Assembly: GCA_017412025.1 (NCBI GenBank)
Contig: JAFQOY010000129.1
Coordinates: forward strand, 1 to 26,479
Direction of reading: 5' to 3'
Origin: Clostridia bacterium
Lineage (GTDB): Bacteria > Bacillota_A > Clostridia > Christensenellales > Aristaeellaceae
Length of the DNA: 26,479 nt
Every line of letters begins with the position of its first letter. The first letter of the stretch is position 1. This document shows positions 13,303 through 22,270 of the stretch, piece by piece. The translations under genes were made by a program, and so were the position numbers. The notes under the pieces are model-generated. The model did not search any database. It was not told the origin of the DNA and saw only the letters and a list, made by a program, of their open reading frames with translations.

Positions 13303-13529
13303 GTATATTGACTGCTGAGAAGAAGAGAGCAGCCGCAGAGCGCGTCTAAAGAGAGCCGGGCAGGGTGAAAGCCGGCGGCGTCGTGGCGGCTGGTATGGCT
13401 TTGGAGCATCTGTGATGAATAAGCGCAGCGGGCGGCTCCCGTTACAGGGCATTGAGGCAGGCTCTTGCCTGCAAAACAGGGTGGTACCACGATATATTCG
13501 TCCCTCGCTTTTTGCGGGGGACGTTTTTT
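13303..13529 (+). promoter_or_regulatory. T-box leader (methionine), tRNA-sensing
   Basis: A leader that binds uncharged tRNA and lets transcription continue into the synthetase gene. The T-box itself is AGGGTGGTACCACG (13478-13491), containing the UGGU bulge able to pair with the ACCA end of a tRNA with discriminator A, as in tRNA-Met. The antiterminator pairs AGGG and ACGA with TCGTCCCT. Upstream lie AGAGAGCC and GTGAAAGCCGGC (stem I region). An ATG at 13395-13397, followed by GCTTTGGAGC, is the candidate Met specifier, consistent with metG downstream. The specifier position is my inference without folding. Confidence 0.92.
13499..13529 (+). terminator. T-box regulatory terminator
   Basis: CGTCCCTCGC (13499-13508), a short T loop, and GCGGGGGACG (13514-13523) are followed by TTTTTT. 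The left arm overlaps the antiterminator pairing, giving the mutually exclusive structures of a T-box. Confidence 0.92.
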
Positions 13530-13543
13530 AAGGAGAGGGAATC

Positions 13544-15520
13544 ATGAGCGAGAAACAGAAATTCTACATTACCACGCCGATTTATTATCCCAGCGATAAT
13601 CTGCATATCGGCCACAGCTACTGTTCTACCGCGGCTGATACCATGGCGCGCTTCAAGAAGCAGACCGGGTATGACGTATTCTTCCTGACCGGTACGGACG
13701 AGCACGGCCAGAAGATTGAGCGCAAGGCACAGGAAGCGGGCGTGACGCCCCAGGCTTACGTCGATCATATCGTTGCCGGCATCAAGGATCTCTGGAAGCT
13801 GATGGATGTTGAGTATGACGATTTTATCCGCACAACGGACGAGCGCCATGTCAAATCCGTGCAGAAGGTGTTCAAGAAGCTGCATGATCAGGGCGATATC
13901 TACAAGAGCGAATATGAGGGCTGGTACTGCACGCCGTGCGAATCCTTCTGGACGGAGCTGCAGCTCAAGGACGGCTGCTGCCCGGACTGCGGCCGTGCTG
14001 TTGAAAAGACCCGTGAAGAGAGCTATTTCTTCCGTCTTTCCAAGTATCAGGACTGGCTGATTGATTATATCAAGACCCATCCGGATTTCATCCAGCCGGC
14101 TTCCCGTGCGACGGAGATGCTCAACAACTTCCTGATTCCGGGTCTGCAGGATCTGTGTGTGTCCCGTACGAGCCTGAAGTGGGGTATTCCGGTCGATTTT
14201 GATCCGAAGCATACCGTATACGTTTGGGTTGATGCGCTGACCAACTATATCAACGCGCTGGGCTATGGCTCCGACGATGATACGCTGTATCAGAAGTATT
14301 GGCCGGCAGATATCCATCTGGTTGGCAAGGAGATCGTCCGTTTCCACACCATCATCTGGCCGATTATGCTTCACGCGCTGGGGCTCCCGCTGCCCAAGCA
14401 GGTATTCGGTCATGGCTGGCTGGTCATGGGCGGCGGCAAGATGAGCAAGTCCAAGGGCAATGTCGTCGATCCGGTCAAGCTCTGCAACCGTTATTCCTCC
14501 GACGCTGTGCGTTATTTCCTTATGCGCGAGATGCCGTTCGGTTCTGACGGTGAGTTCACCAATGAAGCGCTGATCAAGCGCATTAACTCCGACCTGGCGA
14601 ACGATCTGGGCAATCTGGTCAGCCGCAGCGTCGCGATGATCGAAAAGTATTTCGGCGGCGTCGTTCCGGCTCCGGCGGAGTATAACGAGCTTGATCAGAA
14701 GCTGATTGAGCAGGCTTCTACGCTCTGGCAGCGTGTGGAGAAGAGCATGAATGCGCTGCAGTTCTCCAGCGCTCTGGTTGAAATCTGGAAGCTGATTGGC
14801 GATTGCAACAAATACATCGACCTGACGACGCCGTGGATTCTGGCCAAGAACGAAGCGGATCGCCCGCGCCTTGGCACGGTTATGTACGTGCTGCTTGAGT
14901 GCGCGCGTATTGTTGCTGTGCTGATTGCGCCGACCATGCCGCGTACGCCGGAACGCATCTTTGCGCAGATCGGCGTCACTGAAGATGAATTCAAGGTATG
15001 GGATTCCGTCAAGGCGTTCGGCAGCGCGAAGCCGGGCAGCATGGTGAAGAAGGGCGAAGCGCTCTTCCCGCGCATCGACATCGCCAAGGAGCTTGAACTC
15101 CTGGAGGCTGAACGCCAGGCGGCGATGGCGGCTGCGCAGAAAGAAATTCCTGCGCCTGCGGATGAAGAAAAGACCGTATTTACGCAGAAGGATCTGTGCC
15201 AGTTTGCGGACTTTGAGAAGGTGCAGCTCGTCGTGGCCAAGGTGCTCAAGTGCGAGAAGGTGCCCAAGGCGGATAAGCTGCTGATGTCCACGCTGAAGGT
15301 CGGCGATACGGAGCGCGTTGTTGTGTCCGGCATTGCCAAGTTCTACACGCCGGAAGAGATGGTGGGCAAGAAGGTTGTGCTTCTTGCGAATCTTGCTCCG
15401 CGAAAGATCCGCGGCGTGGAATCCCATGGTATGCTCCTTTGCGCTGCCAATGCGGACGACAGCAAGCTCAGCCTGCTGACGGTTGACTCCGATATGGAAG
15501 ACGGCTGCGAGATTGGCTGA
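13544..15520 (+). CDS. metG: Methionyl-tRNA synthetase with C-terminal tRNA-binding domain
   Basis: Charges tRNA-Met, both initiator and elongator. 658 residues. The class I signature HIGH is at 21-24 and KMSKS at 299-303. One zinc knuckle is formed by C129-x2-C132 and C146-x2-C149. The anticodon-binding domain is followed by a C-terminal OB-fold tRNA-binding domain (about 553-658: FADFEKVQLVVAKVL through GVESHGMLLCA), the form found in dimeric bacterial MetRS. AAGGAGAGGGA lies just upstream of the ATG, right after the T-box terminator, so regulation by uncharged tRNA-Met is well supported. tatD follows after 1 nt. Confidence 0.98.
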   Translation: MSEKQKFYITTPIYYPSDNLHIGHSYCSTAADTMARFKKQTGYDVFFLTGTDEHGQKIERKAQEAGVTPQAYVDHIVAGIKDLWKLMDVEYDDFIRTTDERHVKSVQKVFKKLHDQGDIYKSEYEGWYCTPCESFWTELQLKDGCCPDCGRAVEKTREESYFFRLSKYQDWLIDYIKTHPDFIQPASRATEMLNNFLIPGLQDLCVSRTSLKWGIPVDFDPKHTVYVWVDALTNYINALGYGSDDDTLYQKYWPADIHLVGKEIVRFHTIIWPIMLHALGLPLPKQVFGHGWLVMGGGKMSKSKGNVVDPVKLCNRYSSDAVRYFLMREMPFGSDGEFTNEALIKRINSDLANDLGNLVSRSVAMIEKYFGGVVPAPAEYNELDQKLIEQASTLWQRVEKSMNALQFSSALVEIWKLIGDCNKYIDLTTPWILAKNEADRPRLGTVMYVLLECARIVAVLIAPTMPRTPERIFAQIGVTEDEFKVWDSVKAFGSAKPGSMVKKGEALFPRIDIAKELELLEAERQAAMAAAQKEIPAPADEEKTVFTQKDLCQFADFEKVQLVVAKVLKCEKVPKADKLLMSTLKVGDTERVVVSGIAKFYTPEEMVGKKVVLLANLAPRKIRGVESHGMLLCAANADDSKLSLLTVDSDMEDGCEIG

Positions 15521-15521
15521 T

Positions 15522-16337
15522 ATGAGCAAGCATAGAGAGGTGGTTATCCCCGACCTTCCGCCGCTGATTGGGCTGTTTGACACGCATGCGCATCCCAATG
15601 ACGCAAGATTTGATGCAGATCGTGATGACGTTTTTGAGCGGATGCGTCAGGGGAATATGCTCTGTGTCTGCGCAGGCGCGGATATGGCTTCAAGCGCAGC
15701 GGCAGTCGAGCTGGCAAAGAGCAATCCGATGTTTTATGCATCCGTCGGCGTACATCCGCACGATGCGAAGGAATTCTCGGAAAGCGACGTGCCGGTGCTG
15801 ACCAAATGGCTTACGAGCGAGGAAAAGGTCGTGGCGCTCGGTGAGATTGGTCTTGATTACTATTACGATCTTTCTCCCAGAGACGTCCAGCGCGATGTGT
15901 TTGCGCGCCAGCTGGATCTGGCCTATGAGCTGGACAAGCCCGTGATTCTCCATATCCGCGATGCGCATGGCGACGTCACGGATATCCTGCGTGCGCATAA
16001 AAACAGACTGCCGAATTGCGTCGTGCATTGCTGCTCGGCCAGCTGGGAAAGCGCCAAGGTATATATGAGCCTTGATTGCATGATTTCCTTTGCAGGACCG
16101 GTGACGCTCAAGCGCTCTGTCAATCTGCATGAGGTGGCGATGAATATGCCGCTTGACAGGATGATGATCGAGACGGACAGCCCCTATCTTGCGCCCGAAC
16201 CCGTAAGGGGAAGACGCAACGATCCGACTAACGTGGCCCATATCTGCAGGTTTATTGCATCGCTGCGCGGCATGGACGCCCAGCAGCTCTGCGATGTGAC
16301 CCGGGAAAATGGAAAGCGCTTTTACAGAATCAAATAA
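15522..16337 (+). CDS. tatD: TatD-family metal-dependent deoxyribonuclease
   Basis: A 271-residue amidohydrolase-fold nuclease. Metal ligands are all visible: H22 and H24 in FDTHAHPND, E108 in ALGEIGLDYYYD, H144 in LHIRDAHGD, H169 in VVHCCSAS, and D219 in IETDSPYLAP. The histidine motif usually reads HCFSGS; here it is HCCSAS, a mild difference. The ATG at 15522 is one base after the metG stop, and its ribosome site is weak (GAG), so translation is probably coupled to metG. The metG-tatD order is common in Bacillota. Confidence 0.94.
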   Translation: MSKHREVVIPDLPPLIGLFDTHAHPNDARFDADRDDVFERMRQGNMLCVCAGADMASSAAAVELAKSNPMFYASVGVHPHDAKEFSESDVPVLTKWLTSEEKVVALGEIGLDYYYDLSPRDVQRDVFARQLDLAYELDKPVILHIRDAHGDVTDILRAHKNRLPNCVVHCCSASWESAKVYMSLDCMISFAGPVTLKRSVNLHEVAMNMPLDRMMIETDSPYLAPEPVRGRRNDPTNVAHICRFIASLRGMDAQQLCDVTRENGKRFYRIK

Positions 16338-17251: not shown

Positions 17252-18238
17252 TCAGCGTTCCTCGCGGAAATAGGGGAGACCAAGGCCTGCAGGCGGCTGG
17301 TCCTCACGCTTCTTGCGCATGGAAGTCGCCACAAGGACAATGATCGTGACGACATAGGGAACCATCTGAATCAGATCGGTGACATAACCCGGAACGCTGA
17401 AACCAAGCAGTGTAGGCAGGAACTGATAGAGCCAGTACAGCGTACCAAAGAGATAAGAACCCCAGATCGCATTGAGAGGCTTCCAGGTCGTGAAGATGAC
17501 CAGCGCAACGGCCAGCCAGCCCAGCGCTTCGATCTGCCCCGTGGTCGCCCAAATGCCCTGATTATAGTCAAGCACATAGTACAGACCGCCGAGGCCGGAG
17601 ATTCCGGCGCCAAGGCATGTCGCCCAGTATTTATACCTGGTGACATTGATGCCGGCAGCGTCGGCAGTTGCCGGGTTCTCTCCGATTGCGCGAAGATTCA
17701 GACCGGTACGTGTATGATTGAGGAAGTGATGGAGGATGACGGCCAGGATGATCGCCGCGTATACCATAAAGCCATATCCGAACAGGATCCTGCCAGGCGT
17801 GCCAAGACCGGAGAGAAGGGGAATCTTCGTCTGAAAGGTCTTGTATACCATGCTCTGCGTTGCAGTCCGTCCGTCGAGAATATACACGCCGAAGAAGTTG
17901 GCGACGCCCATGCCGAAGGTGGTGAGCGCAAGGCCGGTGACATTCTGATTGGCGCGCAGCGTGATGGTCAGGAAGCTGAAAATCAGGCCGCCGAGCATCG
18001 AGGCGATGAACGCACAGACGAGGGCGAGCGCGACGCAGAAGAGCATGCTGGGTTCTGCCACGCTGTTTTCATACAGATATGCGCTGGCAAAACCTGCAAA
18101 ACCGCCCAGATACATGATACCGGGTACGCCGAGGTTCAGGTTGCCGGACTTCTGGGTGATAATCTCACCCATCGCGCCGTACATGATGATCGTACCAAAG
18201 GGGATGGCGCGAAGGATCCATGCAATCAACGTTTCCAT
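17252..18238 (-). CDS. BMP-family ABC importer permease 2 (NupQ-like)
   Basis: Membrane subunit of a nucleoside/purine ABC importer. 328 residues with about 9-10 hydrophobic segments, BPD_transp_2 family. Characteristic phrases are GAMGEIITQKSGNLNLGVPGI near the N-terminus, LRAIGENPATADAAGINVTRYKYW in the cytoplasmic coupling region, and ALGWLAVALVIFTTWKP. Its start codon overlaps the stop of the other permease by one base (TGATG), so the two are translationally coupled. It is last in the operon. Confidence 0.93.
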   Translation of the reverse strand: METLIAWILRAIPFGTIIMYGAMGEIITQKSGNLNLGVPGIMYLGGFAGFASAYLYENSVAEPSMLFCVALALVCAFIASMLGGLIFSFLTITLRANQNVTGLALTTFGMGVANFFGVYILDGRTATQSMVYKTFQTKIPLLSGLGTPGRILFGYGFMVYAAIILAVILHHFLNHTRTGLNLRAIGENPATADAAGINVTRYKYWATCLGAGISGLGGLYYVLDYNQGIWATTGQIEALGWLAVALVIFTTWKPLNAIWGSYLFGTLYWLYQFLPTLLGFSVPGYVTDLIQMVPYVVTIIVLVATSMRKKREDQPPAGLGLPYFREER

Positions 18239-19344
18239 CAGCCCACCTCCTTGTTAAGGCTCATATGCCTGCTGCGGAAAACAGGTTTGTAGTTGATGAA
18301 GAATTCACTGCCAAGAATGAAGAAGAGGATAATGCCGGCGATGATGTCGGAGGCAAAATCATTGAGGTTAAAGGCGGAGGCGATTTCTCCGGCGCCCTTT
18401 TGCAGGAAGATCAGCAGGAAGGAAATCAGCGCCATATAGAACGTATTGAACTTGGCAAGCCATGCAACAATGATAGCGGTAAATCCGTTGCCGCCCGCCG
18501 TGCTGGTGGATACGGTCTGGTCGCGTCCGCCGACGATCAGGAAACCGGTCAGTCCGCAGAGCGCGCCGGAAATGATCATCGTGCGGATGATGACCCTGCC
18601 GACGTTAATGCCGGCGTAGCGCGCCGTATTCTCGCTCTCACCGACAACGGCGATCTCATAGCCCTGCTTGGAATAACGCAGATAGCAGTACATCAGCACA
18701 ACGAGGATAACGACCACGATGAGGTTGATGTTATAGCGCTGGCCGAAGAACTGCGGAAACCAGCCGGCCTTGCTGCGCATGTTCAGCTTGCCCAGGCCGG
18801 AAGCCTGACCACGCCAGATATTGACGCAGCATGCGACGAGCTGAATGGCGATGTAATTCATCATCAGCGTGAACAGCGTCTCGTTTGTGCCGAGCCTGGC
18901 CTTGAACCAGCCGGGAATAAAACCCCAGAGCGCTCCGGCCAGCACGGCAGAGATGAGCATGAAGGCATACAGCACAGAATTGGGAAGCTTTCCGCCGTAA
19001 TACACCATGACGGCAGCGGTCGCCAGCGCGCCCATGAGCACCTGGCCTTCAGCGCCGGTGTTCCAGAAACGCATCTTAAACGCCGGCGCAAGCGCGACGC
19101 CGATCAGCAGCAGAGAGGCAAGATCGCGAAGCATCCAGGAAAAACGCATCGGGGTAGAGAAGGAGCCGCGGATCATGGTCGCGTAAACATCAATGGGATT
19201 AAGGCCGGTAATGAAGAAGATAAACAGCGCGTCAACCAGAAGCGCCAGAAGAACAGCGGCGAAGCGAACCAGAATCTTGCTCCTGAAAGTTGTGCCGTCA
19301 CGCTTGACAATGCGTACCAGCGGTTCATGCGATATTCCAGCCAT
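18238..19344 (-). CDS. BMP-family ABC importer permease 1 (NupP-like)
   Basis: Second membrane subunit, 368 residues. Typical features: an N-terminal cytoplasmic segment then a first TM (about residue 30), FWNTGAEGQVLMGALA, LGTNETLFTLMMNYIA, and the coupling region AVVGESENTARYAGINV. ATG at 19344 is chosen because GGAGGT lies upstream and it overlaps the ATPase stop by one base; an in-frame TTG at 19350 lacks such a site. Intact despite the amber codon in the upstream ATPase. Confidence 0.93.
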   Translation of the reverse strand: MAGISHEPLVRIVKRDGTTFRSKILVRFAAVLLALLVDALFIFFITGLNPIDVYATMIRGSFSTPMRFSWMLRDLASLLLIGVALAPAFKMRFWNTGAEGQVLMGALATAAVMVYYGGKLPNSVLYAFMLISAVLAGALWGFIPGWFKARLGTNETLFTLMMNYIAIQLVACCVNIWRGQASGLGKLNMRSKAGWFPQFFGQRYNINLIVVVILVVLMYCYLRYSKQGYEIAVVGESENTARYAGINVGRVIIRTMIISGALCGLTGFLIVGGRDQTVSTSTAGGNGFTAIIVAWLAKFNTFYMALISFLLIFLQKGAGEIASAFNLNDFASDIIAGIILFFILGSEFFINYKPVFRSRHMSLNKEVG

Positions 19345-20900
19345 CAGCAAGCACCTCCCTGCCGGTTGTTTTCATTTTGCTGCAGCCTGGTCATCAGCAG
19401 ACCCACTTCTTCCTTGTTGGTTCTGCGTCCGTCAAGGATGCCGTTGTTCTTGCCGTCGCAAAGTACAAGGATTCTGTCACAAAGATCAAGCAGAACATCC
19501 AGATCTTCGCCGACATAGAGAATGGCGACGCCCTTTTTCTTCTGCTCATTGAGCAGATGGTAAATGGTATAGCTCGTATTGATGTCAAGGCCGCGTACAG
19601 CATATGCAGTCATCAGCACAGAGGGGGCGGCGGCAATTTCGCGACCGACCAGTACCTTCTACACATTGCCGCCGGAGAGGCGGGATACAGGGGTGATGAT
19701 AGACGGCGTGACAACGCCCAGTTCCTTCTTGATCGATTCAGCCAGCAGGCGCGGTGAACGACGGTCTGCAATGAAAGAATGGCCTTCATTGTAGCTCTTG
19801 AGCATCATGTTGTCGATCATGCCCATCGAACCGACCAGACCCATGCCGAGGCGATCTTCAGGAACAAAGGAAAGATGGACGCCCATATCGCGGATATCCT
19901 TGGGCGTTTTGCCGATCAGCTGTTCGGCGGTAGAATCGCGGTCGTCATCCGGATAATACACGACGCTGGAATCTTTGTCCGGATGCTGCAGACCGGCGAT
20001 TGCCTCCAGCAGTTCTTTCTGGCCGTTGCCGGAAATACCCGCAATGCCGAGAATCTCTCCGCTGAAAGCATCAAAGGAGATCTGATCGAGCACCTTGATG
20101 CCTTCCGCATTGGTGATGGACAGGTTGTGTACGCTCAAGCGGATATGCGGGTTGACCGGCTCCGGACGCTCAATGTTCAGTTCCACCTTTTTGCCGACCA
20201 TCAGTTCGGTGAGGATGGACTCCGTTGCGCAATCGGTTTCTATGGTACCGGCATACTCGCCCTTGCGCAGAATGGCTACGCGGTCGGAGATGGACAGCAC
20301 TTCATGAAGCTTATGTGTGATGATGATGATGGATTTTCCATCCTTCTTCATATTCCGCATGACTTCGAAAAGATGCTCGGTCTCCTGCGGCGTCAGAACG
20401 GCGGTCGGTTCGTCAAGAATCAGAAGCTGAGCGCCGTGATAGAGCATCTTGATGATCTCAAGCGTCTGCTTCTGGCTGACGCTCATCTCATAGACCTTCT
20501 GATTCAGATCAATTTCAAAACCATACTTGTCGCAGATGGACTGCGCCTTGGCTTTGATGGCTTTCAGGTCATATTTTTCATGCTTGTCCAGCACGAGCGC
20601 GATGTTTTCGGCAGCGGTAAAGACGTCAATCAGTTTGAAGTGCTGATGTACCATGCCGATACCATAGGCATAGGCGTCCTTCGGGCTGCGAATCTCGGCC
20701 AGCTTTCCATCAACAATGATTTCGCCGCTGTCCGGATAGTAGATGCCGGAAATCATGTTCATCAGCGTGGTCTTGCCGCTGCCGTTCTCACCGAGCAGGG
20801 AAAGAATCTCGCCCTTGCGAACATTCATGGAGACGTCGTGATTGGCGATAACGCGTCCAAAGGTCTTGGTAATGTGATGCAGTTCGATGGCATATTCCAT
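19344..20900 (-). pseudogene. BMP-family ABC importer ATPase (NupO-like), interrupted by one in-frame TAG
   Basis: Tandem ATPase of the importer; 518 residues if codon 414 (TAG, 19661-19659) is read, the normal length. NBD1: Walker A GENGSGKTT (37-45), Q-loop VHQHFK, signature replaced by MSVSQKQ, Walker B LLILDEPTAVLTPQE. NBD2: GIAGISGNGQKEL, then RLSGGNV-TAG-KVLVGREIAAAPSVLM, then VRGLDINTSYTIYHLL and VAILYVGEDLDVLLDLCDRI. The stop falls on the position where relatives carry Gln (LSGGNxQK), one transition from CAG. No frameshift: the frame continues for 104 sense codons to TGA at 19344. No ribosome site supports restarting downstream. If not read through, NBD2 loses its Walker B and the transporter is dead. 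AAGGAGTGG precedes the start. Filed as interrupted because sequence alone cannot prove readthrough. Confidence 0.9.
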
Positions 20901-20984: not shown

Positions 20985-22220
20985 TTACTTGATCTCGGTG
21001 ATGCCATCGATGCGCAGCGCGAAGTACGGAGCGCTGCGGAAGGCGGACTCTTCAAAAGCGCCATCCACGATCGCTTCGTAGGTCTCGCCCTGATAGGCAA
21101 CGGTCATGGTCGCCCAATCCATGATGGTCATGTCGACCGGAGCGGAAGCCATCGCCTGACCGCCGACAGTGAAGGTGTCGGCAGCGAACGGCTTAACGGT
21201 GCCGGCCTTGATCGCAGCCTCGATCTCGGCAACCTTCTCAGCGGTGCCCGCAGCGCAGGAAGAGCCCAGCGCAGTGATCTTGACGGCGTCAGAGGCGTAA
21301 CCCTTCGCCCAGTCGGCGGCGACAGCTTCGCCGTTCATCATGGACTGGAACAGCTCGGTATAGAACACGGACCAGACGTTGGTCGGGGAGGTCAGCGCGG
21401 CGGTCGGAGCGGTCGGCAGCATGTCGATGTTATAGCCGACGCAGTAGCACAGCGTGCCGGCGTCCTGCAGCTTCTGGGTGGCAGCCGGAGCGCCGGTGGA
21501 GTCGGCGTGCTGGCCGATGATGACGCAGCCCTTGGCGATGAGCGCTTCAGCGGCAGCGGCTTCCTTGTCGATATCGAACCAGGAATTGGTGTAGTTGACT
21601 TCCATGGCGACGTTCGGAACGACAGAACGGATACCCAGGAAGAAAGCGGTGTAGCCGGAAACAACCTCAGCGTAGTCAAACGCGCCGACATAGCCGATCT
21701 TCACGTTGCCGTCGGCGTCGAAAGAATTCGGCTGCTTTCCCGGAGAGAGCTCGCCGGAAGCGAGGAGCTCGGCAACCTTCATGCCGGCAACAACGCCGGA
21801 GACGTAGCGGGCTTCATAGATCTTGGTAAACGCGTTCTTGAAGTTGTCAAGACCGGTCAGCGCAGCGAAGTCGCCGGTCATGGACACGAAGGTGGTGTCC
21901 GGATACTCTTCGGCAGCGAGAACCATGTAGGTCTGATGGCCGTAAGAGTTGGAGATCACCAGATTGCAGCCCTGGCCGATGCAGTCAAGCGCCGCGTCAT
22001 AGCAGGTCTGATCTTCCGGCGTCTTGTACTTCCAGATGATCTGGCTGTCGGCGATGCCGAGGCTCGCGGCGGCTTCCTTGATGCCGTTCATGTGAGAAAG
22101 GGTGTAGCCCTCGGTCTCGTCGCCGACGAGGATGACGCCGATCTTGAGATCCTGAGCCATCGCGGCACAGGCGAACATGCACAGCACGCAGGCCAGAACC
22201 AGAGCGATAAACTTCTTCAT
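20985..22220 (-). CDS. BMP-family substrate-binding protein (nucleoside/purine importer)
   Basis: Extracytoplasmic binding protein of the importer, 411 residues. A signal peptide MKKFIALVLACVLCMFACAAMA ends in an AMA-QD cut site. The mature part begins LKIGVILVGDE and shows BMP features: a GYVGAFDYAEVVSGYTAFFLGI segment, GCVIIGQHADSTGAP, and LCYCVGYNIDM. Relatives bind purine nucleosides, though some bind other small molecules. The start at 22220 has AGGAGGAAAAACC upstream. I see no canonical lipobox, which is unusual for a Gram-positive binding protein. It is first in the operon and followed by a hairpin. Confidence 0.93.
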   Translation of the reverse strand: MKKFIALVLACVLCMFACAAMAQDLKIGVILVGDETEGYTLSHMNGIKEAAASLGIADSQIIWKYKTPEDQTCYDAALDCIGQGCNLVISNSYGHQTYMVLAAEEYPDTTFVSMTGDFAALTGLDNFKNAFTKIYEARYVSGVVAGMKVAELLASGELSPGKQPNSFDADGNVKIGYVGAFDYAEVVSGYTAFFLGIRSVVPNVAMEVNYTNSWFDIDKEAAAAEALIAKGCVIIGQHADSTGAPAATQKLQDAGTLCYCVGYNIDMLPTAPTAALTSPTNVWSVFYTELFQSMMNGEAVAADWAKGYASDAVKITALGSSCAAGTAEKVAEIEAAIKAGTVKPFAADTFTVGGQAMASAPVDMTIMDWATMTVAYQGETYEAIVDGAFEESAFRSAPYFALRIDGITEIK

Positions 22221-22270
22221 TGGTTTTTCCTCCTGAATCAATCACATGGTGTAAAAGGAATACGAGAGTA

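Follow-up and report, generated by a model that had tools for sequence, protein, structure and literature searches.

Importers of the NupNOPQ type (BMP/PnrA family) use as their ATPase NupO, in which two nucleotide-binding domains (NBDs) are fused in the RbsA manner, and the passage on this protein in PMC11466899 describes its second Walker A and Walker B motifs as degenerate. Two further kinds of system bear on a stop codon inside such a gene. One is the reassignment of UAG to glutamine, which a passage of PMC8629427 records for eukaryotes, and the other is the strain-level nonsense allele or very young pseudogene, where a single in-frame stop stands in a gene that has an intact twin on record and no clear further decay.

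In the window, by which we mean the whole 26,479-base stretch of DNA analysed here, the ATPase gene of an importer operon is interrupted by an in-frame TAG at codon 414. The operon shares with the NupNOPQ type the degenerate second site of two NBDs, and it has the same two PF02653 permeases and PF02608 binding protein adjoining on one strand; by analogy, the window importer may take up nucleosides. It differs from that type in that its ATPase copy is stopped at codon 414 and reaches no listed NCBIfam cut-off. As in UAG-to-Gln reassignment, TAG stands where homologues have Gln, but at one site only in the window, and the relatives have TAG stops and prfA, with no CUA tRNA found by a class-I pattern. 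The single in-frame stop, the intact twin on record and the lack of clear further decay match those of a strain-level nonsense allele or a very young pseudogene, provided that the stop is no artefact. We judge it likely that one strain of an uncultured Clostridia species near Candidatus Ventricola carries, in its gene for the ATPase of a NupNOPQ-like importer of the BMP family, an amber nonsense allele that is ordinary and of very recent origin.

The importer operon and its interrupted ATPase gene

The features of the operon are collected in Table 1. PF00005 matches two stretches of the intact database protein P0001, and likewise of the cut database form P0102, which corresponds to two ABC NBDs in one chain, and beside the ATPase gene PF02653 is matched twice and PF02608 once, all above gathering scores. 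The second NBD is degenerate, with GISGNGQKE at the Walker A position (residue 288) and VLMTAYAVRGLD at the Walker B position (residue 428). Among the 25 NCBIfam families listed for the ATPase (of 189 matched), RbsA, XylG and a B6 transporter included, none is over its cut-off, and the best score among those listed is to NF047930, at 387 of 670 bits. A sequence search of solved structures returns other ABC transporters as its best matches (best 60 of 574). In the binding protein the best PF02608 stretch is confined to the residues given in the table, and no NCBIfam family matched.

Table 1. Features of the importer operon, in positions of the window
Feature	Position	Strand	Remarks
NupO/RbsA-like fused two-NBD ABC ATPase gene	19344..20900	-	519 codons including the terminal TGA; in-frame stop at codon 414
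In-frame TAG, codon 414 of 518	19659..19661	-	two residues past the LSGGN signature of NBD2
413-aa open part, with the whole of NBD1, and NBD2 as far as the signature motif	19662..20900	-	identical to P0102
Downstream remnant ORF, 91 aa from GTG	19344..19619	-	in the database the called gene, P0121 (89 aa), begins two residues further on
First importer permease (PF02653)	18238..19350	-	ATG overlaps the ATPase TGA by one base; mechanical ORF begins at an upstream TTG
Second importer permease (PF02653)	17252..18238	-	PF02653 match
BMP/PnrA-type substrate-binding protein	20985..22241	-	PF02608 over residues 175-319 of 412 aa scanned

The relatives of this DNA are mostly metagenome-assembled genomes of uncultured Clostridia, Candidatus Ventricola among them, and in the nearest genomes compared the operon is at about 81% DNA identity. 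In the plasmid collection nothing closely matches the region, the five pattern matches in viral_contigs include no relative, and no Rfam element in the window reaches its gathering threshold. Elsewhere in the window, a 718-aa mechanical ORF (13442-15598, minus strand) runs antisense to a gene that we take from its sequence to be metG-like, and it is probably a shadow of codon bias.

Read on the minus strand from position 20900, the interrupted frame passes through ...LSGGNV-TAG-KVLVGREI..., with 413 sense codons before the TAG and 104 after it, and then TGA. The terminal stops of the 23 genes in our hand-made list for the window are TGA in 12 cases, TAA in 11 and TAG in none, and the window genes use 252 CAG and 12 CAA codons. 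The preliminary description had reported a TAG at codon 414, a frame open on both sides and no TAG among the window's stops, and all of this is borne out by our reading of the ORFs. Since the list of window ORFs is free of internal stops by construction, we also compared the window with ORFs of its relatives. These matched 20 of the 23 listed genes, some of them partly covered and the other three without a match, and the alignments show no stop within a listed gene but the TAG at codon 414; every other stop in them is outside these genes, ahead of a start. All 26 of the relatives' ORF alignments that show the site have Gln opposite the TAG.

If translation ends after residue 413, as the stop would dictate, the product would keep NBD1 and the part of NBD2 up to LSGGNV, and would be without the rest of the signature helix, the strand at the Walker B position and the C-terminal 104 residues. 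A structure model (mean pLDDT 77.5, pTM 0.57, residues 396-413 under 50) was read only for the secondary structure around codon 414. In this model residue 414 is placed inside a predicted helix, 410-422, past the signature, and the cut would remove most of that helix together with the predicted strands 428-433, 459-464, 476-481 and 484-490. The function of the cut ATPase would thereby probably be lost.

Conservation of codon 414 and copies of the gene on record

Residue 414 is Gln in all 118 full-length homologues examined, these being the 120 listed matches minus the reference P0001 and the cut form P0102, and the expectation that the homologous residue is a conserved Gln thus holds. At the DNA level, codon 414 is CAG at 65 and CAA at 27 of 92 loci, and TAG at none (the last 12 of these loci, L081-L092, partly repeat genomes already in the set). 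The signature motif as written matches 294 of 356 proteins, with Gln in 293 and Pro in one (P0321). How striking a stop at a conserved Gln should appear depends on what else one transition could have hit. Counting codon 414 as CAG, the ATPase gene has 16 one-transition paths to a stop, all at Gln codons (15 CAG and 1 CAA), and Gln makes up 97% or more of 10 of its 16 Gln columns, so a conserved Gln is the target to be expected; across the whole protein, agreement with P0001 reaches 97% or more in 276 of 518 columns. According to a passage of PMC8629427, stops in pseudogenes are mostly single transitions from certain codons.

Recurrence of the TAG in other organisms was sought in three ways and is rejected as an interpretation, P0102 and its remnant P0121 being the only instances seen. 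A DNA pattern for the TAG form of the motif matched none of 396 genomes of the order, where the Gln form matched 148. In a length-limited search with proteins over 505 aa left out, P0102 alone is cut at the codon-414 site among the best 120 of 7,995 matches, a list that includes many full-length 504-aa proteins from other groups. Among C-terminal fragments (best 120 of 1,745) there is no recurrent TAG besides P0121, although those fragments that start past the Gln are uninformative without their DNA.

The same searches turned up other breaks near this site. P0245 (416 aa, on a 45,572-base contig), which ends in ...LSGGMCRRCW, and P0268 (428 aa, on a 2,068-base contig), which ends in ...LSGGTCRRCWSAVSWPPTPLC, both come from other species and look like frameshifts inside the same signature motif. 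Ten of the 120 listed C-terminal fragments begin at the V just before the Gln, as MQKV... (P0122, P0125, P0126, P0129, P0137, P0150, P0159, P0160, P0161 and P0175). P0160 occurs on 22 contigs, the longest of 237,279 bases, so that in some other species the ATPase may have become permanently split; alternatively, gene callers may have a preference for this internal start. One idea is that the LSGGN codons might act as a Shine-Dalgarno-like site for internal starts at V413.

Intact copies of the window's own protein are on record. Apart from a Gln at residue 414, P0001 (518 aa, on four contigs) does not differ from the window protein; P0002 (on one contig) shares that Gln and has a single difference elsewhere. 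Both were seen as proteins, and they are near-identical intact alleles at that level. Because such copies exist elsewhere, the window TAG needs one mutational event, and because they are copies of the same protein, the gene is better described as a loss-of-function variant than as a recoded gene. For the cut form P0102 (413 aa), as for the remnant P0121 (89 aa), the database lists a single contig, of 22,089 bases in both cases. Against the 26,479-base window, this contig may be the same strain assembled a second time, or a record with other end points. The database gene calls split that contig at the TAG, which suggests that the codon is not read as Gln there.

Recoding readings and the genetic code of the relatives

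The window strain might read UAG as Gln, through a suppressor tRNA or partial reassignment, and so make the protein in full. In its favour are a TAG at an invariant Gln, no TAG among 23 window stops and the rarity of TAG as a stop in the relatives, where 112 orthologues of window genes end in TGA 73 times, TAA 37 times and TAG twice. Yet those two TAG stops also count against it, as do the TAG ends of 23 of 263 homology-supported ORFs in the relatives (12 of 133 in the 400-kb subset); the 263-ORF set includes doubly counted loci, such as L004 and L110, and possible shadow ORFs, and the count over 112 orthologues is the cleaner one. In the ClpB-like gene of L007, TAG stands at the same end as TGA or TAA in the four relatives shown. 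At these rates the absence of TAG from 23 window stops has a chance probability of 0.66 (2/112), 0.12 (23/263) or 0.11 (12/133), and is unremarkable. All 13 relatives' genomes examined score above the cut-off for the release factor gene prfA. With the anticodon CUA, a class-I tRNA pattern matched 24 times, in 23 of 29 relatives; 22 of the matches are tRNA-Arg(UCU) and two are not tRNAs, leaving no class-I tRNA-CUA in the 29 relatives by this pattern. The same pattern with CUG finds a common tRNA-Gln core in 26 of the 29 by hand count (a tally of 28 includes chance matches); it replaced a first, stricter pattern, which gave 0 of 29 and was too strict. Nor is the TAG one of several. It is the single in-frame stop in those window genes, 20 of 23, for which the relatives allow a comparison, against 252 CAG and 12 CAA codons in the window genes as listed, and in the relatives no in-frame stop appears in 201 alignments of orthologues of window proteins (70,300 residues, 1,924 of them at a query Gln), made by tblastn with 22 window proteins and P0001 against 25 loci that partly repeat genomes; since a tblastn alignment may break off where a stop occurs, this zero is not absolute. 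A scan whose queries were mechanical ORFs from 250 aa upwards, among them antisense frames, gave 306 in-frame stops that are uninterpretable, and it was discarded. Finally, an otherwise identical protein with Gln exists (P0001), and the bacterial code changes then known are all placed at UGA in the Introduction of PMC8629427, a later passage of which adds new ones at arginine codons. Taken with these observations, reading of UAG as Gln in the window strain is very improbable.

Pyrrolysine has nothing to recommend it here beyond the in-frame TAG itself, and we regard its insertion as practically negligible. PylS is over its curated cut-off in none of 29 relatives, and the weak sub-cut-off matches in 26 of them resemble those in the control genomes (13 of 14 matched, 12 weakly below the cut-off and one over it). 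The site is moreover a conserved Gln, the otherwise identical protein carries Gln there, and no recurrent TAG at the site was found by the length-limited protein search or the 396-genome pattern. A narrower proposal is that the window strain has an amber suppressor of its own, for example a mutant tRNA-Gln, which would yield some full-length ATPase with no clade-wide change of code; the nonsense allele would then be conditionally silent. We give this very little credence. The preliminary description had called suppression, reassignment or pyrrolysine less far-fetched in view of the missing TAG stops; P0001 with its Gln and, in the relatives, the TAG stops, prfA, the PylS result and the lack of a CUA tRNA lend none of these readings support when they are tested through the relatives.

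Nonsense allele, artefact and the fate of the cut protein

A recent nonsense mutation and a base error, both of which had been named as options, fit the presence of P0001 with Gln on four contigs. The TAG may be a base-call or assembly error, or the consensus of minority reads, in one metagenome contig, with the organism's gene intact. We consider this possible but unlikely. It would account for an otherwise identical Gln protein on four contigs versus one for the cut form, and for the lack of any other change in 518 residues or of clear decay past the stop. Against it, the 22,089-base contig has the same cut form, so that TAG would have been assembled twice if that contig is a separate assembly, and the absence of any other stop from 20 of 23 window genes (three unmatched, some partly covered) means that the window does not look error-rich. 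A nonsense allele is supported by the same solitary stop in the comparable genes and by the absence of TAG from the 92 loci and the 396 genomes. We also compared amino-acid change before and after the stop at five loci, a sixth (L083) having been set aside for its length difference. The changed codons number 51/413 before and 9/92 after the stop against L082, 60/413 and 8/94 against L086, 59/413 and 12/96 against L085, and 38/246 and 12/95 against L084; against L081 the change is higher past the stop (57/413 and 18/96), which counts against the allele. Like change on both sides of the stop, together with the identity to P0001, indicates a stop that either arose very recently or is spurious. 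As no decay has set in past the stop and the operon is otherwise open, the sequence cannot date the event or separate a mutation from a base error.

Should the nonsense allele be real, the cut protein could in principle still work, as NBD1 is whole and NBD2 keeps the LSGGN with which the catalytic site would be completed. In keeping with this, the second Walker A and B motifs of NupO are degenerate according to the passage in PMC11466899, as they are here, and residues 408-413 are kept. Such activity is nonetheless extremely unlikely. Most of helix 410-422 and the four predicted strands would be lost in the model, beyond the stop there are columns, Q453 and K454 for example, that do not vary among the 36 sequences of A1, and no other protein ends at the site among the 120 matches listed.

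The favoured interpretation thus remains a nonsense allele, and this loss-of-function variant is probably transient. It also carries a caution, as a lone in-frame TAG at a conserved Gln resembles recoding and yet is here the necessary look of one nonsense transition. Were the suppression reading true, a gut-type strain of Clostridia would harbour a natural amber suppressor. A real allele would mean that part of a population has lost one BMP-type uptake system.
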